Assembly (NCBI GenBank): GCA_947479755.1
Contig: CANKAM010000033.1
Span: 1 to 39,752, forward strand
Origin: Bacteroidota bacterium
GTDB taxonomy: Bacteria; Bacteroidota; Bacteroidia; SXHM01
DNA length: 39,752 bases
Direction of reading: 5' to 3'
A model generated the notes under the pieces. That model ran no database searches and was not told the DNA's origin. It saw only the letters and a program-made list of their open reading frames with translations. Both the position numbers and the translations under genes were made by a program. Positions 16,371 through 25,497 of this stretch are shown here, one piece after another (the stretch's first letter is position 1; each line of letters begins with the position of its first letter).

Positions 16371-17528
16371 GTGAAATCATTTTTAGAAAAAAGTTCAGTC
16401 TCTCCTGAACTAAAGAAAATAGCAGAAAAAATTTTCAAATCAGAACGCATCTCCTTTGACGAAGGTCTTTTGTTATATAAAAAAGGAGAGCTTGGTTTTC
16501 TGGGAACACTGGCAAATTACATTCGTGAAAAACGTCATGGCGATTACGTTTATTTCAATCGCAATTTTCATGTGGAGCCAACAAATATTTGTGTGTTTGA
16601 TTGCAAGTTCTGCTCCTACTCTCGCCTGTTGAAAGAAAAAGGAGAAGGCTGGGAGTTAAGCGAAGAACAAATTCTGGACAAGCTAAAAAGCTATGCCGGT
16701 AAACCGATTACTGAAGTTCATATTGTTGGCGGTGTGCACCCAAAGATGGGTTTGCATTATTTTGCCAGCCTGATAAAAAAAATAAAAGAAATACGCCCTG
16801 ATATTCATGTGAAAGCCTTTACCGCTGTAGAGTTGGAATACATGTGCCGCAAAGCAAAAGTGAGTTTCCGTGAAGGCTTGCAATTACTGAAAGAACACGG
16901 ACAAAACTCATTACCGGGCGGTGGAGCAGAAATTTTTCATCCCGAAATACGTAAACAAATTTGTGAAGATAAATGCACAGCCGATGAGTGGCTGGAAATT
17001 CATGAAACCGCTCATTCATTGGGAATGCCAAGCAACGCAACCATGCTTTACGGACACATTGAAAAATTTGAACACCGTGTTGACCACATGGAACGGCTTA
17101 GAAATTTGCAGGATAAAACCAAAGGGTTCAACACATTTATTCCGCTAAAATTTCGCAACAAAGACAACCAAATGTCGCACCTTGCCGAAGTAAGTACGAT
17201 TGAAGATTTGCGCAACTATGCCATCGCACGTATTTACATGGATAATTTCCCACACATCAAAGCTTACTGGCCTATGATTGGAAGAAACACGGCACAACTC
17301 TCCTTACAGTTTGGAGTAGATGATATAGACGGTACGATTGATGACTCAACAAAAATTTACTCAATGGCAGGTTCTGAGGAACAGTCACCTGCCCTTACAA
17401 CCCAAGAATTAGTGGAACTTGTAAAACAGGTAAATCGTCATCCCGTTGAGCGCGACACACTTTACAACATTCTTACTGATTACAACAATTACGATTTCTC
17501 AAAAGAAGAGAAAATTGTTACCGCCTGA
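16371..17528 (+). CDS. mqnE: Aminofutalosine synthase (radical SAM)
   Basis: A 385-residue radical SAM enzyme of the futalosine route to menaquinone, joining SAM and the enolpyruvyl-benzoate product of MqnA to form aminofutalosine. The [4Fe-4S] motif CX3CX2C is C74-x3-C78-x2-C81 (CVFDCKFCSY). LPGGGAEIF and TMLYGHIE are diagnostic of the MqnE/MqnC group, and LPGGGAEIF with this length favours MqnE over MqnC. The start is GTG at 16371, 4 bases after the upstream stop. No other mqn gene is in the window. It ends convergent to the GNAT gene. Confidence 0.88.
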   Translation: MKSFLEKSSVSPELKKIAEKIFKSERISFDEGLLLYKKGELGFLGTLANYIREKRHGDYVYFNRNFHVEPTNICVFDCKFCSYSRLLKEKGEGWELSEEQILDKLKSYAGKPITEVHIVGGVHPKMGLHYFASLIKKIKEIRPDIHVKAFTAVELEYMCRKAKVSFREGLQLLKEHGQNSLPGGGAEIFHPEIRKQICEDKCTADEWLEIHETAHSLGMPSNATMLYGHIEKFEHRVDHMERLRNLQDKTKGFNTFIPLKFRNKDNQMSHLAEVSTIEDLRNYAIARIYMDNFPHIKAYWPMIGRNTAQLSLQFGVDDIDGTIDDSTKIYSMAGSEEQSPALTTQELVELVKQVNRHPVERDTLYNILTDYNNYDFSKEEKIVTA

Positions 17529-17533
17529 TAATA

Positions 17534-18130
17534 TCAGCTCATTAACTTTTGCAGTTCATTCAATAATTCAGGCAGTATTTGCAACTGTGGCTTTTCATTA
17601 GAAATAGTTGCAGCAAACCGTTTAAGTTTTTCAGAAGCTTTTAAATAATTCTCCTTTTCAAGCACGTAAATGTCAAAACTGCTGTCGTTTGATGTTTCAT
17701 GCAAACGAAAACCCAACGTAAGATTGTAGCGAACTGCAACTGAATTTTCGCGACTAACCTTTGCAAAATAGTTCAGTAAGCCAAAGTTTTCAAAGAAACA
17801 CTCTAACATAGCAAGCGAAGCAAGAACAGGAATATGAGTTCCAAGATAGTTTTTGTCCCATATAAACAAACCTGCATCGGCTGTCTTGTCTTTCCAGTTA
17901 ATATGTGAGGTATGAATCAAACCGACTTTTACGCCCTTGTAATTAATGAGAAAATAAAAATCAGAAAGCGGGTTTAATGAATTATACCACATTTTCTGCT
18001 CTTCTTCTGTTATGAATTTCTGATATTCCATAACACTGCTTATTTCTTTTGAATTACGCCAATAGCGAACCAATTCAACATCTTCAAGCGTAAGTTGTGA
18101 AAGTGTAATTCCGAAATTGCGGATAATCAT
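17534..18130 (-). CDS. GNAT-family N-acetyltransferase, PseH/RimJ-like
   Basis: A 198-residue cytosolic acyltransferase of the GNAT fold. The N-terminal region ITLSQLTLEDVELVRYWRNSKEISSVMEYQ resembles PseH-type enzymes that acetylate 4-amino groups on dideoxy sugars (xxELVxxWRN); the acetyl-CoA-binding strand-turn region is about residues 95-135 (DKNYLGTHIP). Last gene of a four-gene minus-strand operon after ACP, KAS III and GT2. Its ATG overlaps the GT2 stop as TGATG, indicating translational coupling. With an ACP and KAS in the same operon, the acyl donor may be acyl-ACP rather than acetyl-CoA; that is inference. Substrate unknown. Confidence 0.8.
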   Translation of the reverse strand: MIIRNFGITLSQLTLEDVELVRYWRNSKEISSVMEYQKFITEEEQKMWYNSLNPLSDFYFLINYKGVKVGLIHTSHINWKDKTADAGLFIWDKNYLGTHIPVLASLAMLECFFENFGLLNYFAKVSRENSVAVRYNLTLGFRLHETSNDSSFDIYVLEKENYLKASEKLKRFAATISNEKPQLQILPELLNELQKLMS

Positions 18131-19050
18131 CAGAGAACAGTTTTCACGGTATAAGATGGTTTTCCTGTTTCACCAATATAAAGCCTGCGGATATACTCAC
18201 CAATAATACCAAGGCTGAAGAGTATTAATCCTGTTGAGAAAAAAATGGAAACAATCAGCGTAGTAAAACCGAGCTCAGCTCCGTAATTATATTTCATGTA
18301 GATGAAATAACACACAAAACCAAGACAAATAAGTGCAGATAATAAACCAAACCATGAAATTATTTTCAGTGGAAATGCGGTATAACCCACGACTAATTTC
18401 AGCGTTATTTTAAATAATTTAAACAGCGTGTAACCTGATTGCCCTTCTTTGCGAGGCAAATGTTCTACTACAACATGTTCAATATTATCAGTATGCCAGG
18501 CAAGAATTTCGTCCAAAAAAAACATGCGATAGTTGCGTGAAATGACTTTTTCCGTTACTGAAGAATTGATGAGTTTAAACGAAGAACCTTTGCCGGACAT
18601 ATTGGCAAAGTTTTTAAAGATTTTGCCAACAAACCAACTTCCTGCATTACGAATCAAGGAATGCTCTTTCTTTTCATAGTAACCGTAAACCAACTCTGCT
18701 CCTGTATTTTCCTGTGCAAGCAAAAGCTTTTCAATCTCTTCCGGTGGTGTTTGCAAGTCATCGTCAATGGTTATTACCCACTCTCCTCTTATAAAAGTTA
18801 GTCCGCAAAAAAGCGCATTGTGCTGACCGTAATTTTGTGTGAGTTTTACGGCAGTAACAGTTTGTGGATTTTTCTTCTTTAACGATGAAAGTACTTCCCA
18901 ACTCTTGTCTGCGCTGCCATCATCAACAAAAATAACTTCGAATGACTTTTGCTTTTTGGTAAAATATTTTTCGATGCGCAGATAGAGATCTGCCAACGTT
19001 TTCTCGCTGTTATAAACCGGAACAACTATTGAAAAATCTTTCTTATCCAT
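18130..19050 (-). CDS. Family 2 glycosyltransferase, ArnC/GtrB/DPM1-like, membrane-anchored
   Basis: A 306-residue GT-A glycosyltransferase that likely transfers a sugar from a nucleotide donor to polyprenyl phosphate on the cytosolic face of the inner membrane. Motifs are FSIVVPVYNSEKTL (6-19), VDDGSADKS (42-50) and the DxD-type IDDDLQTPPEE (95-105). Two strong C-terminal membrane helices lie at about 228-250 and 262-290, followed by GEYIRRLY, as in ArnC and GtrB. The start abuts the KAS III stop with no gap; the stop overlaps the GNAT start by one base. The combination with ACP and KAS III is unusual for this family. Confidence 0.88.
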   Translation of the reverse strand: MDKKDFSIVVPVYNSEKTLADLYLRIEKYFTKKQKSFEVIFVDDGSADKSWEVLSSLKKKNPQTVTAVKLTQNYGQHNALFCGLTFIRGEWVITIDDDLQTPPEEIEKLLLAQENTGAELVYGYYEKKEHSLIRNAGSWFVGKIFKNFANMSGKGSSFKLINSSVTEKVISRNYRMFFLDEILAWHTDNIEHVVVEHLPRKEGQSGYTLFKLFKITLKLVVGYTAFPLKIISWFGLLSALICLGFVCYFIYMKYNYGAELGFTTLIVSIFFSTGLILFSLGIIGEYIRRLYIGETGKPSYTVKTVL

Positions 19051-20094
19051 TTAGATTTCTATTAATGGAAGGCAGGCTATTTTGTCTGTTTCCAGGATGG
19101 CAGTTCCCCATGAAAGCCCTACACCAAAACCTGAAAGCAGCAAAGATAATTTTTCGTTTGTAAGTTGCTCACGCAGTTGGGTTACCAGCGTAGTTGGGAT
19201 AGAAGCCGAACTTGTATTCCCGAAATCTTTCAATGAATACGGAACTTTTTCAGGTGCTATAGCAAGCTTCTTTCTTATAGCTTCATTCATCAACAAATTA
19301 GCCTGATGAAAAACAAAATAATCAACATCCTTAGTGTCTTTTCCGCAATAGGCAAGTAGCTGCTTTGCATCGGGAGCAACTTCTCGTAAGGAAAAGTTGA
19401 ACACATCCACGCCATTCATTATTAAATGTGTTTTGTTGCGCTCAATTCCTTCTGATATTTTTTCACTCCATAATGAAGCAGGTGAAATTTTATTTTTCAA
19501 TCCGCCATCAGGAATAATAATGGCATTGTATCCTTCCCCATCGTTATGCAGGCTGAAATGAATCACACTATCAGAAACATCCATTAAAGTTGCGCTGCCG
19601 GCATCGGAAAAAATGGGCGAAGTGCTTTTATCTTTTTCTGAAACAACGGAAGAAGAAACATCACCAACAAGCAATAATCCTTTTTTTGCGCCTGTTGTTT
19701 TAAGTAAGGATGACATAACCGAAAGTCCATATACATAGCCTGAACAACCCAGATTAATATCAAGTGCAATGCAGGCTTTTGGCAATCCCAGACGATGTTG
19801 CAATCTGATAGCAGTTGGTGGAATAATCCAATCGGGGGTTTGAGTAATAAAGAGCAAAACACCTATTTCAGATTTAACGCATTGCGTTTCGTGCAGCAGT
19901 TTTTCTGCTGCTTCAAAACATAGATCTGACGCGGTTAGCCCTTCAGGTGCTATTCTGCGGTTTTCTATTCCTGTGGTTTTAATAAATAATTCCTTCTCCT
20001 TGATTGTAGCAAAAGGATAGTCGTTATTAGAAACCTTTTGTTTCGGCACACTTACAGCAAGTCCGCTTAGTTTTATGCCTGAAACAGTAAACAC
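19051..20094 (-). CDS. 3-oxoacyl-ACP synthase III (KAS III/FabH-like)
   Basis: A 347-residue thiolase-fold condensing enzyme. The catalytic triad is intact: C117 in INLGCSGYVYGL, H263 in FVFHQAN, and N293 in DFGNTSSASIP. FabH normally starts fatty-acid synthesis by condensing acetyl-CoA with malonyl-ACP; homologues in glycan and lipid clusters make short acyl chains. Here it is flanked by its own ACP (16-base gap) and an ArnC-like glycosyltransferase rather than by fab genes, so a dedicated acyl-chain role is more likely than housekeeping synthesis. The TTGIENRR motif near the N terminus is standard. Confidence 0.9.
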   Translation of the reverse strand: MFTVSGIKLSGLAVSVPKQKVSNNDYPFATIKEKELFIKTTGIENRRIAPEGLTASDLCFEAAEKLLHETQCVKSEIGVLLFITQTPDWIIPPTAIRLQHRLGLPKACIALDINLGCSGYVYGLSVMSSLLKTTGAKKGLLLVGDVSSSVVSEKDKSTSPIFSDAGSATLMDVSDSVIHFSLHNDGEGYNAIIIPDGGLKNKISPASLWSEKISEGIERNKTHLIMNGVDVFNFSLREVAPDAKQLLAYCGKDTKDVDYFVFHQANLLMNEAIRKKLAIAPEKVPYSLKDFGNTSSASIPTTLVTQLREQLTNEKLSLLLSGFGVGLSWGTAILETDKIACLPLIEI

Positions 20095-20110
20095 AAATCA
20101 GATTTTGGGG

Positions 20111-20356
20111 TTATGAATTAAGTATAGTCTTTTTATTCTGAACAACGGAAAATAAATCAGATACGGTTACGCAATCATGCAGGTTTTCAGCGGTGAGCGT
20201 TACTCCATATTCAGCATCAACCATGGCAATTAAAATCAGTGCTTGCATAGAATTCCAGGCATCTAATTGCTTATAAGGAGTTTCGGGCAGTATGGTGCCG
20301 GGAACAATATCAGCCAGTTCGGCTTCAAATATTTTTATAAAATCTTCGAGTTGCAT
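20111..20356 (-). CDS. Acyl carrier protein
   Basis: An 81-residue acidic carrier protein. The phosphopantetheine attachment serine is S36 in LDAWNSMQAL, replacing the usual DSL with NSM, as seen in specialised rather than fatty-acid-synthase ACPs. Helix II continues as ALILIAMVDAEYGV. It opens the operon ACP - KAS III - GT2 - GNAT; the start ATG at 20356 lies about 14 bases after an exact -7 box, fixing it as first gene. A holo-ACP synthase is not encoded nearby. Partner is presumably the adjacent KAS III. Confidence 0.88.
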   Translation of the reverse strand: MQLEDFIKIFEAELADIVPGTILPETPYKQLDAWNSMQALILIAMVDAEYGVTLTAENLHDCVTVSDLFSVVQNKKTILNS

Positions 20357-20370
20357 TTGCGGTAAAAAAG

Positions 20371-20378
20371 CAAAGATA
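20371..20378 (-). promoter_or_regulatory. -7 promoter box of the ACP-KAS III-GT2-GNAT operon
   Basis: The minus strand reads TATCTTTG, an exact TAnnTTTG match 14 bases before the ACP start codon. The predicted leader is about 8 bases. No distinct -33 TTG was found. Confidence 0.5.
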
Positions 20379-20462: not shown

Positions 20463-21320
20463 CTAAGACAACAACTTTAAACTTGCCTTATAGTCGTGGG
20501 GAATAAAACCCAGTTTTTTTAAATCGTCTGAGAACTCAACCCTTCTCAATGCCTTTAGTCCGACCAGGCTTTCTTTGCCAACTCCAGTGTTAATTCCCAG
20601 CAGTTTGGTGAGCGAAAGAATTATCTCCATGAGGGGGTAAGAGATATTGAACGTCAGCACCTTTTTGTTCAGTGCTTTTGCAAGCTCTTTGTAAAAATCG
20701 CAGTAAAGAACAGGTTCGGTTTCGGCAACCGTGAATGTTCCGTTCAGATTTTTGGTAATGATAATTTCAATGGCTTTCATGATATCTAAACTATGAACGG
20801 TATAAAGCGGCTGTTTACCTCCGTCAATAAGAGGAACAATGCCTTTTGACTTAATGTGTTTTACCATCTCCAGGAACAAACCTCCGTTGCCAATTACTAA
20901 TCCTGGGCGAATGATGGCATCGTCTTTTGCGTTAAACTCTTTTTCCAGAAGAAATTTCTGTTGTCCGTAAGCGGAAAGAGCATCAGCATGAGCCGACATA
21001 CTGCTGAAGAAAATATTTTTCTTCACTCCTGCATTGCGTGAAGCTTGCAGCAGCTTTTTTGTTCCTTCTATGTTTATGTTTTTTGCTTCTTCGCCTTTTA
21101 AATAAGCGCAATGAATAAATATGGTTGCATCATTAAAAAGATTTTTATCAAGTGGTTTTTCAAGACTGGATATTCTGTATTCAACACCCTGCACACGTTG
21201 AGCTGGTATGTTTCTGCAAAAGCCGATTACGTGATACCCCTGCTGAATAAAATGAGCGCAAAGCTGCGAACCGATAAAGCCGGTAGCGCCTGATATTGCT
21301 ATGGTTTCGTTTGTGTTCAT
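20463..21320 (-). CDS. NAD(P)-dependent epimerase/dehydratase (extended SDR)
   Basis: A 285-residue Rossmann-fold enzyme of the extended short-chain dehydrogenase family. The nucleotide-binding motif ISGATGFIGSQL gives G11xxG14xxG17. The active site is Y118-x3-K122 (AYGQQKFLLE) with serines in FFSSMSAH upstream. Substrates in this family are nucleotide sugars, sterols or other secondary alcohols; the short C-terminal domain does not decide. It is the last gene of a five-gene minus-strand operon and overlaps the GMC oxidoreductase by 4 bases (ATGA type), so it probably acts on the same or a sequential substrate. Confidence 0.87.
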   Translation of the reverse strand: MNTNETIAISGATGFIGSQLCAHFIQQGYHVIGFCRNIPAQRVQGVEYRISSLEKPLDKNLFNDATIFIHCAYLKGEEAKNINIEGTKKLLQASRNAGVKKNIFFSSMSAHADALSAYGQQKFLLEKEFNAKDDAIIRPGLVIGNGGLFLEMVKHIKSKGIVPLIDGGKQPLYTVHSLDIMKAIEIIITKNLNGTFTVAETEPVLYCDFYKELAKALNKKVLTFNISYPLMEIILSLTKLLGINTGVGKESLVGLKALRRVEFSDDLKKLGFIPHDYKASLKLLS

Positions 21321-22930
21321 TTCAGCGCGTTGAGTGCAACGTTATGTGCGTTTGCCATTAAACTCAATGTTAAGCCTTTTGCAGGAAGAAAGCGAAATCC
21401 GGAACCATCGGCTACAAAAATATTTTGTGTTCCGTGCAGTCTGCCATCGGATGAAAGAGAAAATGATTTCTCTTCTTTTTCAAAGGGAAGAACTCCTGCA
21501 TAGTGAATGCTGGAGCCCATTCCGGGGTCAATCATTTTTACAGGAAAGGCTCCGAGTTTGCGCATGGCTTTTTTGAACAGGCTGTTGCGTTCGGTGATTT
21601 TTTGTTTCTCTATTTCACTTAAGAGGTATTCGGCCTGCAAGTTGTCTCCTGAGATTTTTTTAGTGTCTTTTATAAGGCTCAATAACTTTTTACCTCCGCT
21701 TTTTTCGGGATGAAAAAGGCCCATGATGACAAAGGCCGGCATGAGAAAGTTCATCAATGAAATTCCATCGCGGAAGTTGACAGGTGCTTCTTTAATGATG
21801 CGGAAGAGCATGAGCGATTTGAAGCTGTAGAGCGATGCCATGGCAATGTCATCGCCCTGCATGTTGTTATCATGGAAGAGCGAGAGTTGTGCAAAGCCGG
21901 TAGTGTTGCGTTCAAAAGTTTTGCCGAGTTGCGAAATGTTGATGCAAGGGAAATAAGCGTAAGGATTGCAGAGCAGCGGCAGTGTTTGGTTTTCTTTACC
22001 GAAGGAACGAAGCACGATGCGTGCTGTGCCCAGCACACCTGGTGCAAGCACCAGTTTATATGTGCGGTAAATCTCTTCTTCGTTTTTTTCTTTGTTCCAG
22101 GTTGTGATTTCGACAACCCCATTCTCGATTTCTTTAAACTGCTTTAGAATGATACCGCCCTTGTAAGTGAAGTTGTTTTTCTTTTTCAGTTCGTTAACCG
22201 TAATCCAAGGGCGGTAGGCACTCTCGCCTTTGTCGGAATAAAAATCAAAGTCTTGTGGTTGATAAGCTTTGCGGTTGTTGTAATCTTTAGTAATCAATGC
22301 TAGAGCCGTGCGGCCGAGGGAGAAATTATTGGCTTTAAACCAATCTACTTTTCTTTCATAGTTGTTTTTCAGGCTTTGCTGGCTGGAGTCAACCGGTGGC
22401 GGGGGCATGATGTTAGTTAGAAAAGAGGTCGTATAGTTTTTGATGTCGTCTTGTCCGCCTGAGATGCCGATGCGGTCGGCAACGGTTTGGTAGGCTGCTT
22501 TCATTTTTACAGGGTTGAGACCTGCGGCATTAAGTTCTGCATCGGAGAAAACGCATGAGCCGAGACCCCAACCGTTGCCGAGACCACCATAGGCAAGACT
22601 TTCAACGGGGAAGAATGTTTTGGAAAAAATATCAAGAAATTTTTCGACTTCAGTGACCATGAATTTTCGCGGAGGCGTGAGTTGTGAACCGCTTCCGATT
22701 TTGTCCCACGAAATGCTTTCGAATTTTTTGCCGAGCAGGTAGTCGCTCTGGTTTTCATCGGTCTGGCGGAATGCTGTGAAATCTTTTTCGGGAATGAGCT
22801 TTGTGTAGGTATCATCGGTGATTCCGGCATCGAGCATGAGGACTTTTATACCTGCTTCAACAAGGGTTTGTGCAGCCATAGCACCGGTGCAACCGGAGCC
22901 GACAACGATGTATGGATGCACTTCGCTCAT
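21317..22930 (-). CDS. GMC family FAD-dependent oxidoreductase
   Basis: A 537-residue flavoprotein of the glucose-methanol-choline oxidoreductase superfamily. The FAD dinucleotide fold is IVVGSGCTGAMAAQTLVEAG (8-27) with LMLDAG after it; YGGLGNGWGLGS matches the second GMC signature region. The C-terminal active site is SIHYAGVLPF (catalytic His) with a following VADGSGFRFLPAKGLTLSLMANAHNVA, where N or H replaces the second catalytic residue. It overlaps the genes on both sides by 4 bases, so it belongs to a tightly coupled operon. No export signal is seen. It oxidises an alcohol that cannot be named from sequence. Confidence 0.88.
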   Translation of the reverse strand: MSEVHPYIVVGSGCTGAMAAQTLVEAGIKVLMLDAGITDDTYTKLIPEKDFTAFRQTDENQSDYLLGKKFESISWDKIGSGSQLTPPRKFMVTEVEKFLDIFSKTFFPVESLAYGGLGNGWGLGSCVFSDAELNAAGLNPVKMKAAYQTVADRIGISGGQDDIKNYTTSFLTNIMPPPPVDSSQQSLKNNYERKVDWFKANNFSLGRTALALITKDYNNRKAYQPQDFDFYSDKGESAYRPWITVNELKKKNNFTYKGGIILKQFKEIENGVVEITTWNKEKNEEEIYRTYKLVLAPGVLGTARIVLRSFGKENQTLPLLCNPYAYFPCINISQLGKTFERNTTGFAQLSLFHDNNMQGDDIAMASLYSFKSLMLFRIIKEAPVNFRDGISLMNFLMPAFVIMGLFHPEKSGGKKLLSLIKDTKKISGDNLQAEYLLSEIEKQKITERNSLFKKAMRKLGAFPVKMIDPGMGSSIHYAGVLPFEKEEKSFSLSSDGRLHGTQNIFVADGSGFRFLPAKGLTLSLMANAHNVALNALK

Positions 22931-23304
22931 GCCAGTTTTACGAGTATAACACCGAACAGACCTGTAAGGACTGCACGTGTTCCGTGTAGAGCGGTTTTGA
23001 AAAATCCGTTTGCAGTTTTTTTATTGTAGGATGATGAAAGTAAGGGGAAATATGCGGGACGGGTTTCGAGGATGCAGAGGATGATGTAGATATTTTTGCG
23101 ATACAAGGAAAGTGGTTGTGTAAGCGCAAGACCACCGTCAATAAAGGAAATGAGAAAGGGGAAACGCATTGAGATCTGGTGTAAACGGTTTTCCTTTTCA
23201 GTGAATTCTATTTTATGATGCGCTATTGCGGCATGGTATAGTTCCAATGATTTTGCATCGGGATTTTTTCCGCTGAGGTAACGGAAATAGATTTCAGGCT
23301 GCAT
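22927..23304 (-). CDS. Unrecognised 125-residue protein, possible GMC small subunit
   Basis: Not recognised. The ATG at 23304 (MQPEIYFRYLSG) is preferred; the open frame continues to 23466, but those 54 residues overlie the upstream DUF2304 gene in another frame and look non-coding. The protein is basic (His, Lys and Arg rich), with hydrophobic stretches around FPFLISFIDGGLAL and RAVLTGLFGVILVKLA that could be amphipathic or membrane-associated. The layout ILETRPAYFPLLSSSY...FFKTAL resembles the small helical subunits or N-terminal domains that accompany some GMC oxidoreductases (such as gluconate dehydrogenase subunit 3). It overlaps the GMC gene by 4 bases and the DUF2304 gene by 11. Low confidence in function, good confidence it is translated. 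Confidence 0.6.
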   Translation of the reverse strand: MQPEIYFRYLSGKNPDAKSLELYHAAIAHHKIEFTEKENRLHQISMRFPFLISFIDGGLALTQPLSLYRKNIYIILCILETRPAYFPLLSSSYNKKTANGFFKTALHGTRAVLTGLFGVILVKLA

Positions 23305-23650
23305 TTTGTTTTTCGCTTGATTGGTGGTGTGCGCGCATGTTTGCGAGTTCCTGTGTAAGGCGTTTATTTTGTTCCTGCAGTTTGGAAACCACAATGGAAA
23401 GATGCAACAGGTAAATAAGAATTGCAAGAATGGAACCGATAAAAACAATATTGGGTGGTGAGGCAACTTCCACTATAGAGGCAACTACATCCAGACCACT
23501 GCGCCAGAAAGAGAAAATGATGAGAATAAGGGTACAGATTATCCATACGATGGCGTATTCTTCGCGCAGTTTACCTTTTATAATAAGCCGTGCAATAAAA
23601 ATAAGAAACAGAATACTTGCTGCTATGGCAATGATTTGAATTCTTTGCAT
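23294..23650 (-). CDS. DUF2304-type small membrane protein
   Basis: A 118-residue integral membrane protein. Three hydrophobic segments lie at about residues 3-22, 34-51 and 66-88, with the signature KGKLREEYAIVWIICTL between the first two; a short cytosolic coiled coil ends the protein (VSKLQEQNKRLTQELANMRAH). This matches the DUF2304 family, usually found next to a DPM1-like glycosyltransferase. Here the GT2 gene is 2 bases upstream. It may anchor the soluble GT2 to the membrane; that is inference from gene order. Confidence 0.82.
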   Translation of the reverse strand: MQRIQIIAIAASILFLIFIARLIIKGKLREEYAIVWIICTLILIIFSFWRSGLDVVASIVEVASPPNIVFIGSILAILIYLLHLSIVVSKLQEQNKRLTQELANMRAHHQSSEKQNAA

Positions 23651-23652
23651 GA

Positions 23653-24375
23653 TTAGTTAGTTTTTTTCAATCTCAAATATGTAAAAAAAATCGCCAGTGT
23701 AACCTTAAACATATAATAAACCGAGCCGGCAGTGTTGATGGAAGAAACGCCTCCCTGCCGCTCATTCATCTGCACAGCAAACTCACCGATGTTGAGTTTA
23801 TTTACTGCATAGAGTACAATGGCTTCGGGCTCGGGATACTCATCAGGATAATATTCGCTGACTACTTGAAGTGCTTTGCGGTTGAGCATGCGCATGCCGG
23901 AAGTAGAGTCTTTTACAGAAACGCCTACCAGCCAGTTATTAAGGTGATGAAAATAATTGATTCCCATTCTGCGCGCAAAGGTTGACTGAAAACCTTCGTT
24001 GGTAAGAAAACGGCTGCCTATGATGACATCTAAGTTTTTTGTTTTCAACTCTTCCAACATTTGGGGAATAAATTCGGGCGGATGTTGTCCGTCACCATCA
24101 ATTTGTATGGCGTAGTCAAAACCGTTTTCAAACGCGAAAATAAAACCGGTTTGCACTGCACCTCCAATGCCTAAGTTAACGGCAAGGTGAACGGGAATGC
24201 AATCGGCTTTGTCAATGATTTCGGCTGTGCGGTCTTTTGAGCAATCGTTGATAACTATAGGAATGTAGCGGGTTGCAGAAGCAGAACTATTGAGTGCATT
24301 GACAGAGGCGATGACGGCTGCAATAGCGCTTTCTTCGTTATAAGCAGGAATGATGACGGCTATCTTTTCAGACAT
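23653..24375 (-). CDS. Family 2 glycosyltransferase, DPM1-like without C-terminal membrane helices
   Basis: A 240-residue GT-A enzyme, predicted polyprenyl-phosphate glycosyltransferase. Motifs are IAVIIPAYNEESAI (5-18), VINDCSKDRT (41-50), the metal site IDGDGQHPPEF (92-102; D93 and D95), and the STSGMRMLNR acceptor region. It lacks the paired C-terminal membrane helices seen in the GT2 at 18130-19050, consistent with the DUF2304 gene immediately downstream supplying membrane attachment. It opens the five-gene operon and is preceded by a 150-base repeat-like intergenic region. Confidence 0.87.
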   Translation of the reverse strand: MSEKIAVIIPAYNEESAIAAVIASVNALNSSASATRYIPIVINDCSKDRTAEIIDKADCIPVHLAVNLGIGGAVQTGFIFAFENGFDYAIQIDGDGQHPPEFIPQMLEELKTKNLDVIIGSRFLTNEGFQSTFARRMGINYFHHLNNWLVGVSVKDSTSGMRMLNRKALQVVSEYYPDEYPEPEAIVLYAVNKLNIGEFAVQMNERQGGVSSINTAGSVYYMFKVTLAIFFTYLRLKKTN

Positions 24376-24525: not shown

Positions 24526-25497
24526 TCAGATAAGTCCTTCGCGCAATAAATCATGTAAATGAATAAATCCAACGAACTTTTCGGCATCTGTAACAACGAG
24601 TTGTGAAATGTTGTTGTCGCGCAAAATTTTCAAAGCATCCACCGCCATTTCGGTTGAAGAAATTGTTTTAGGATTTTTGTTCATGATGTCGGCAGCCTTG
24701 AGGTTGCTGATATTTTCATCGCGTTCCATCATTCTGCGCAAATCACCATCGGTAATTATTCCTGCCAATTTTTCTCCGTCAAGCACGGCCGTTGCGCCTA
24801 GTCGCTTGGAAGAAATTTCGAGGATGGCAGTTTTTATGCTGTCGCCTGCATTAACTTTTGGCGTTGCATTGTTTTTGTAAATGTCTGCAACGGTGAGGTA
24901 AAGTTGTTTGCCCAACGAACCACCGGGGTGAAAGTGTGCAAAATCTTTGCTCGTAAAATCGCGGCATTTCAAAAGACAAACTGCGAGTGCATCGCCCAGC
25001 GCCATTTGTGCAGTAGTGCTTGATGTGGGTGCTAAATTATTAGGGCAGGCTTCTTTTTCAACAGTGGCGTTCAATACGTAATTGGCTTGTTTTGCAAGAA
25101 ATGAATCGGTGTTGCAAACTAAGGCAATCAGTTTATTTCCGCTGCTTTTAAGTAAAGGAACCAATACTTTTATTTCGGGCGAGTTTCCACTTTTTGAAAT
25201 GCAGATAACCACATCATCGGTTTGTATGGTTCCTAAATCGCCATGCACAGCATCGGCAGCATGCATAAAACTGGCGGGAGTTCCCGTAGAATTTAGCGTT
25301 GCCACAATTTTATTAGCGATGATTGCGCTCTTCCCAATTCCGGTTATAACCACTCTTCCTTTTGAATAAAAGATGGTTTCAACCGTTTTTACAAAATCAG
25401 AATCGATGAACTGCACGAGGTTTCGCACGGAATCTGCCTCTATTGCTAAAGTTTCACGGGCTATATGTATTAGTTCATCGGCACTTTTCACGGGCAA
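24526..25497 (-). CDS. kdsD: D-arabinose-5-phosphate isomerase, KpsF/GutQ family
   Basis: A 323-residue cytosolic enzyme converting ribulose-5-phosphate to arabinose-5-phosphate, the first step of Kdo synthesis for lipopolysaccharide. An N-terminal SIS domain (about residues 30-170) has GRVVITGIGKSAIIANKI and ISKSGNSPEI; two CBS domains follow (about 205-323, TAVLDGEKLAGIITDGDLRR and SQLVVTDAEKFVGFIHLHDLLR). The start is not ATG: TTG at 25497 or GTG at 25491 (VKSADELI) are both possible. A minus-strand TACTTTTG (25590 to 25583) is an exact -7 box within the divergent gap shared with recQ. Confidence 0.92.
   Translation of the reverse strand: MPVKSADELIHIARETLAIEADSVRNLVQFIDSDFVKTVETIFYSKGRVVITGIGKSAIIANKIVATLNSTGTPASFMHAADAVHGDLGTIQTDDVVICISKSGNSPEIKVLVPLLKSSGNKLIALVCNTDSFLAKQANYVLNATVEKEACPNNLAPTSSTTAQMALGDALAVCLLKCRDFTSKDFAHFHPGGSLGKQLYLTVADIYKNNATPKVNAGDSIKTAILEISSKRLGATAVLDGEKLAGIITDGDLRRMMERDENISNLKAADIMNKNPKTISSTEMAVDALKILRDNNISQLVVTDAEKFVGFIHLHDLLREGLI

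Follow-up and report, generated by a model that had tools for sequence, protein, structure and literature searches.

The nearest described counterpart of the genes considered here lies in the O-antigen locus of Flavobacterium psychrophilum, where wfpC encodes a ketoacyl-acyl carrier protein synthase (KAS), wfpD an acyl carrier protein (ACP), wfpE a further KAS, wfpF a ketoacyl-ACP reductase and wfpG a PglD-like acyltransferase (PMC6519341). Together, wfpC-G are proposed to build a 3,5-dihydroxyhexanoyl group and to place it on UDP-Qui2NAc4N. The roles of the genes are predictions; the structure of the 3,5-dihydroxyhexanoyl sugar in that strain was established by nuclear magnetic resonance (PMC6519341). 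This paper alone turned up in a literature search for a prior module of family 2 glycosyltransferase (GT2), GNAT, ACP and KAS genes. Here we describe such a module, in the order ACP, KAS III, GT2, GNAT, on contig CANKAM010000033.1 of a Bacteroidota genome (39,752 nucleotides, referred to as a whole as the window), and document its operon structure, gene order, conservation, active sites and genomic associations. The balance of the sequence evidence tips modestly towards these four genes being the core of a pathway in Bacteroidia that would make an N-acylated amino sugar on polyprenyl phosphate. The novelty is the joining of ACP-built N-acyl amino sugars to lipid-linked single-sugar donors of the Arn/Gtr type; both kinds are already known, and the joining of these two textbook schemes was not found in the literature searched.

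The source genome measures 3.9 Mb, is 99.6% complete and falls in an order which, among the genomes searched, consists of one genus of 7 species. Its four genes form a single minus-strand operon (17534-20356), with intergenic gaps of 16 (ACP-KAS), 0 (KAS-GT2) and -1 bases (GT2-GNAT), exactly as had been stated in an earlier note made from the sequence alone. Among 395 sampled Bacteroidia genomes, a match to the GNAT family at E <= 1e-40 marked 71, from 17 families, as carrying the module. A KAS match (E <= 1e-50) was present in 59 of these and lay within 5 kb of the GNAT gene in 54; in a further 9 genomes the four genes adjoin one another and the KAS is more diverged, and in the last 3 the module is cut or split by contig ends. 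Even split operons keep both halves, on two contigs in genome G251 and 23 kb apart in G114. Wide separation of the genes in relatives, which the earlier note had named as the observation that would speak against it, is thus not what the sample holds. An arrangement that recurs in 17 families is not due to chance, and the window set is the short form of a class-wide Bacteroidia module, not a local oddity. Within the window's genus, the order ACP-KAS-GT2-GNAT, convergent with a radical SAM gene, was found in every locus long enough to tell.

The commonest form in relatives is longer, KASa-ACP-KASb-SDR-GT2-GNAT, in which the short-chain dehydrogenase/reductase (SDR) is an adh_short_C2/FabG-like enzyme. 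The second KAS and the ketoreductase occur in most other module loci; the window and its genus have neither. The remark in the earlier note that no other fab genes are nearby therefore holds for the window and fails for most relatives, whose operons include a second KAS III and a FabG-like SDR. When a tree of KAS III sequences is rooted with the FabH-like genes of the genus, the window KAS nests inside the long-form KASb clade (support 0.93), and so the genus has most likely lost KASa and the SDR. Short-form KAS sequences from other lineages (loci L114-L123) branch outside that clade (support 0.87-0.94), as do those of L087, L090 and L095, which also have neither a second KAS nor an SDR; there the four-gene form is most likely independent or ancestral. 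That the four genes recur on their own suggests that they are the functional core. Since the window genome has no orthologue of the long-form SDR (best match 29% identity), any 3-oxo reduction would fall to a general FabG. In several loci an OlsC/LpxO-like acyl hydroxylase gene directly follows GNAT, which points to an acyl product. In short-form modules, GNAT is also directly followed by an antisense gene for a conserved protein of some 300 aa (L119:7586-8503, L115:7420-8340, L122:7569-8474), and the L119 copy has no Pfam or NCBIfam match. An ACP/KAS/SDR core was further seen in a Thermoguttaceae-labelled contig (L055:8672-13606) and a Chitinivibrionia contig (L053), and may thus not be restricted to Bacteroidota.

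The residues expected of a working acyl-building pair are in place. Ser36 of the ACP (WNSM, codon 20249-20251), which lies in the NSM motif already singled out as the attachment site, is the predicted phosphopantetheine site and is a serine in every aligned relative, while the Cys117/His263/Asn293 triad of the condensing enzyme, described earlier as intact, does not vary across 104 sequences. That the KAS III might be a second fatty-acid initiation enzyme, for branched starters, placed beside glycan genes by accident is compatible with its membership of the FabH superfamily. We regard this as highly improbable: the enzyme reaches 218 bits against the FabH model TIGR00747 (cut-off 292.1), a separate FabH-like gene (29% identity, ACSG motif) is encoded elsewhere in the genome, and KAS accompanies GNAT in every module genome whose contigs are intact. 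The separate gene also makes substitution for the housekeeping FabH unlikely, and that reading, which the earlier note had listed against its own proposal, was rejected. A further possibility is that KAS III and ACP form an acyl-loading pair of the CerJ/ChlB3 kind, without chain building, with a different amine as the substrate of GNAT. Acyltransferases are known among the relatives of KAS III (ChlB3; PMC9573744), and the window genus has no ketoreductase of its own; the condensing triad is nevertheless kept in all relatives, and the SDR in most of their operons fits a condensation product, which makes a loading pair very unlikely. No gene set of the flexirubin or aryl-polyene type was found among the open reading frames and domain matches of the window.

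The GT2 has the architecture of polyprenyl-phosphate enzymes, namely a GT-A domain, a DxD motif (here DDD96-98, shared by every aligned relative) and, towards the C-terminus, two hydrophobic stretches (approximately 225-254 and 258-287) predicted to be membrane helices. Its closest solved structures are GtrB sll0501 and ArnC (E ~1e-38), and it is accordingly predicted, from sequence, to load a sugar onto polyprenyl phosphate. The ArnC likeness and two helices reported earlier stand as regards architecture and motif; as an ArnC equivalog the protein does not qualify, with 158 bits to the ArnC model (cut-off 529) and 125 to PgfS, well under the equivalog cut-off. One might instead see an O-antigen precursor module of the wfp kind, in which ordinary repeat-unit assembly would draw on the N-acyl amino sugar in its nucleotide-linked form and the GT2 would be just one of the transferases of that assembly, not a loader of polyprenyl phosphate. 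The KAS/ACP/KAS/SDR core is common to wfpC-F, related cores occur with DegT and/or PglD genes (L049, L050, L055, L056), and some short modules adjoin Wzm/Wzt-like exporters. Against this, 37 loci without PglD retain a module GT2 of GtrB/ArnC architecture, and many long-form loci are no O-antigen loci, their neighbours being unrelated genes (for S12, S7 and EF-G, among others). An O-antigen role of this sort is, on these grounds, unlikely.

The GNAT enzyme is PseH/SpeG-like by profile and by fold, in agreement with its earlier description as PseH-like. Its nearest NCBIfam model is PseH, at 55.2 bits and below the cut-off of 93.1, so that it is not a PseH equivalog. A predicted model of moderate quality (pLDDT 69) confirms the GNAT fold, with SpeG and PseH structures as Foldseek matches (E ~1e-9; PseH 4ri1, E 3.9e-9). 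In GNATs, the loop [QR]xxGx[GA] grips the pyrophosphate of CoA. This motif occurs in 0 of 38 members of the family, which suggests that the acyl donor may be bound to ACP. The timing of acylation bears on the scheme put forward in the earlier note, in which the GT2 would first make a polyprenyl-phosphate amino sugar and GNAT would then acylate the lipid-linked sugar. The order GT2-GNAT, with its 1-base overlap, fits such sequential action. The enzyme looks soluble, however, and its closest counterpart, PseH, has UDP-sugars as substrates; in the wfpG precedent acylation precedes transfer, and in the Arn pathway formylation by ArnA likewise comes before transfer. What is retained from the earlier proposal is thus an operon dedicated to an acyl-sugar, including a GT2 of the polyprenyl-phosphate type and a GNAT; acylation of a nucleotide sugar is the better precedented route (wfpG, PseH, ArnA), and acylation after transfer appears quite unlikely.

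Supply of the amino sugar was approached through genome-wide associations, counted per genome (71 with the GNAT module, 324 without) and per genus (30 and 167, respectively). No aminotransferase is found in the window operon, as had been noted, and the apparent gap is probably filled from elsewhere in the genome, where contig C8 encodes a WecE equivalog (60902-62017; 527 bits, cut-off 375). WecE is the dTDP-4-amino-4,6-dideoxygalactose transaminase. It occurs in 61 of the module genomes as against 85 of the others (Fisher p 6e-21), and in 28 genera with the module as against 51 without (p 5e-11, kinship above genus level being ignored). The control aminotransferase PseC shows no such excess (8/71 versus 63/324), and was rejected as the aminotransferase of the module. 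A WecE-type gene lies about 2 kb or less from the module in genomes G015, G111, G142 and G140, with a weaker relative nearby in G069. We consider dTDP-Fuc4N the favoured acceptor sugar, not a proven one, because the association ignores ancestry above the genus and WecE serves other glycans. In the window genome WecE shares a tightly packed operon with a GT2, a GT-C transferase of the PMT_2 type and a second membrane protein (L134:12540-17533, contig C8), an arrangement not seen around the WecE of 40 other genomes. A general tendency of GT-C genes to stand beside WecE was considered and discarded, no consistent difference being apparent between 20 module-positive and 20 module-negative genomes.

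A candidate for the last step emerged from the surroundings of the module in relatives. A TMTC-like gene lies within 10 kb of the module KAS in 17 of 30 module genomes, where 0.8 would be expected, and in 11 of 17 genera. The encoded protein has a polytopic N-terminus and C-terminal tetratricopeptide repeats (TPRs); Pfam TMTC_DUF1736 is matched by 10 and PMT_2 by 5 of 20 members, and its DD, YRP and R-x-E/D motifs resemble TMTC motifs M1-M3. TMTC proteins model best on ArnT (PMC7801869). A model of the TMTC-like protein made from 4 sequences reached pLDDT 71 and is weak in the membrane part. ArnT and related GT-C enzymes use polyprenyl-phosphate sugar donors, and for this reason the neighbour supports the assignment of the GT2. 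Module genomes that were examined carry between 1 and 14 TMTC-like copies; the window genome includes pairs of TMTC-like TPR membrane proteins of 643-941 aa (L137:6362-12000 on contig C53, L136:5458-9567 on contig C10).

From these elements we infer the following pathway, including its acyl group, sugar, acceptor and every chemical step. KAS III would join an acyl-CoA starter and malonyl on the dedicated ACP, and the 3-oxo group would be reduced by the module SDR in most relatives and by a housekeeping FabG here. The product would be a 3-hydroxyacyl-ACP with a short chain, for which 3-hydroxybutyryl is the likeliest candidate; long-form modules would lengthen it by means of their second KAS and SDR, in the manner of the 3,5-dihydroxyhexanoyl group predicted for F. 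psychrophilum. GNAT would then take the acyl chain off the ACP and place it on the amino group of a 4-amino-4,6-dideoxy sugar linked to a nucleotide, the likeliest being dTDP-Fuc4N from WecE, and the ArnC/GtrB-like GT2, judging by homology, would attach the acylated sugar to polyprenyl phosphate. Once the lipid-linked sugar has been flipped, a GT-C transferase, for which role relatives often encode a TMTC/ArnT-like TPR protein beside the module, may hand the sugar on to a protein or glycan of the periplasm. By analogy, our best model of the overall plan is an Arn pathway with the formyl group exchanged for one built on ACP.

Several observations weigh against this model. The GT2 score, far below the ArnC cut-off, leaves its donor and acceptor as predictions, and the TMTC assignment draws on weak profile matches. 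No TMTC-like gene adjoins the module in the window genus, and approximately 5 copies are found elsewhere in the window genome. With the second KAS and the SDR absent from that genus, the acyl group made there may not be the one made by relatives. WecE, finally, is common in Bacteroidia in any case and rarely adjoins the module, and its association was corrected to the genus level only.

Should the model hold, many environmental Bacteroidia would be predicted to make a glycolipid, polyprenyl-phosphate N-acyl-4-amino-6-deoxyhexose, that is a possible donor for their TMTC-like transferases. The case also illustrates that an acp-kas pair which seems to stand alone can be traced to a glycan pathway. 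We put forward only tentatively, as a possibility with the odds against it, that the module serves a class-wide decoration of surface or secreted proteins, in which a miniature polyketide line making hydroxyacyl groups would N-acylate dTDP-Fuc4N and the lipid-linked product would be the donor for TMTC-like O-glycosyltransferases.

The operon (Table 1) probably has its start at the ACP, with the epimerase and GMC-type oxidoreductase upstream of it in a block of their own, because a putative promoter box before the ACP is kept in the genus while the sequence and genes further upstream vary. TAnnTTTG is the -7 element of Bacteroidota promoters. The core of the box, AAAATTATCTTTG, is identical in 6 genus members despite differing upstream genes and sequence, and the end of the feature set by the earlier note, 20378, coincides with the 5' end of the genus-invariant box. 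The upstream epimerase (20463-21320) was tried as the missing ketoreductase and set aside on three grounds: its type is that of the extended SDRs, its place beside the ACP is not constant within the genus (in L039 and L041 the two are separated by other genes, and in L038 the epimerase does not lie upstream at all), and the ACP is preceded by its own box. The block to which it belongs is conserved in the genus and separable from the ACP operon. On the other side, the radical SAM gene, 5 bases from GNAT, is a neighbour kept across the genus, and beyond it lies a genus-conserved operon neighbour encoding a secreted protein whose C-terminal end resembles, by eye, a type IX secretion signal domain.

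Table 1. Coordinates of the module and of neighbouring genes in the window.
Feature	Position	Strand	Remarks
GNAT acyltransferase, PseH-like, 198 aa	17534..18130	-	Pfam Acetyltransf_3, 40.9 bits (cut-off 25.4)
GT2, ArnC/GtrB/PgfS type, 306 aa	18130..19050	-	Pfam Glycos_transf_2
KAS III-like condensing enzyme, 347 aa, GTG start	19051..20094	-	Pfam ACP_syn_III and ACP_syn_III_C
Dedicated ACP, 81 aa	20111..20356	-	Pfam PP-binding, 23.3 bits (cut-off 20.8)
Putative -7 promoter box TATCTTTG (TAnnTTTG)	20371..20378	-	~15 bases upstream of ACP start
Repetitive secreted protein, 1106 aa	13046..16366	+	
Radical SAM protein	16371..17528	+	CofH/MqnC C-terminal domain; convergent with GNAT
Upstream block	20463..24375	-	NAD epimerase-type reductase, GMC-like oxidoreductase, 126-aa orphan, DUF2304, DPM/PpgS-like GT2
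KdsD/KpsF-type arabinose-5-phosphate isomerase	24526..25497	-	SIS and CBS domains; beside envelope genes

Set against the systems described to date, the module resembles wfpC-F in the first four functions of its long form, which follow in the same order (KAS-ACP-KAS-reductase) when compared by annotation; the dedicated ACP beside a condensing enzyme is present in the window as well, the set of two KAS and a ketoreductase is not. Where F. psychrophilum has the left-handed beta-helix protein WfpG, of the PglD-like kind, a GNAT is found here, and where the wfp product enters the O-antigen, the present loci feature a GtrB/ArnC-like GT2, often outside O-antigen loci. PseH, the UDP-4-amino sugar N-acetyltransferase, shares the GNAT fold and provides the nearest NCBIfam model, whereas the module enzyme falls under the equivalog cut-off and does not have the CoA pyrophosphate motif. 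GtrB sll0501 and PgfS are related to the GT2 over its full length, in the DDD motif and in the two C-terminal helices, but the donor of the module is presumably an N-acyl amino sugar. The neighbour in relatives recalls the GT-C O-mannosyltransferases TMTC1-4 in its polytopic N-terminus, motifs and TPRs; it differs in being bacterial, in a donor that is probably not mannose and in not adjoining the module in the window genus. With the Arn pathway (ArnB-ArnA-ArnC-ArnT), finally, the proposed scheme would have in common an amino sugar, its N-modification, an ArnC-type transfer to undecaprenyl phosphate and, possibly, an outside GT-C enzyme, and would differ in using an ACP-built acyl group for formyl, a WecE-type enzyme for ArnB, a TMTC-like protein for ArnT and a GT2 that is no ArnC equivalog.

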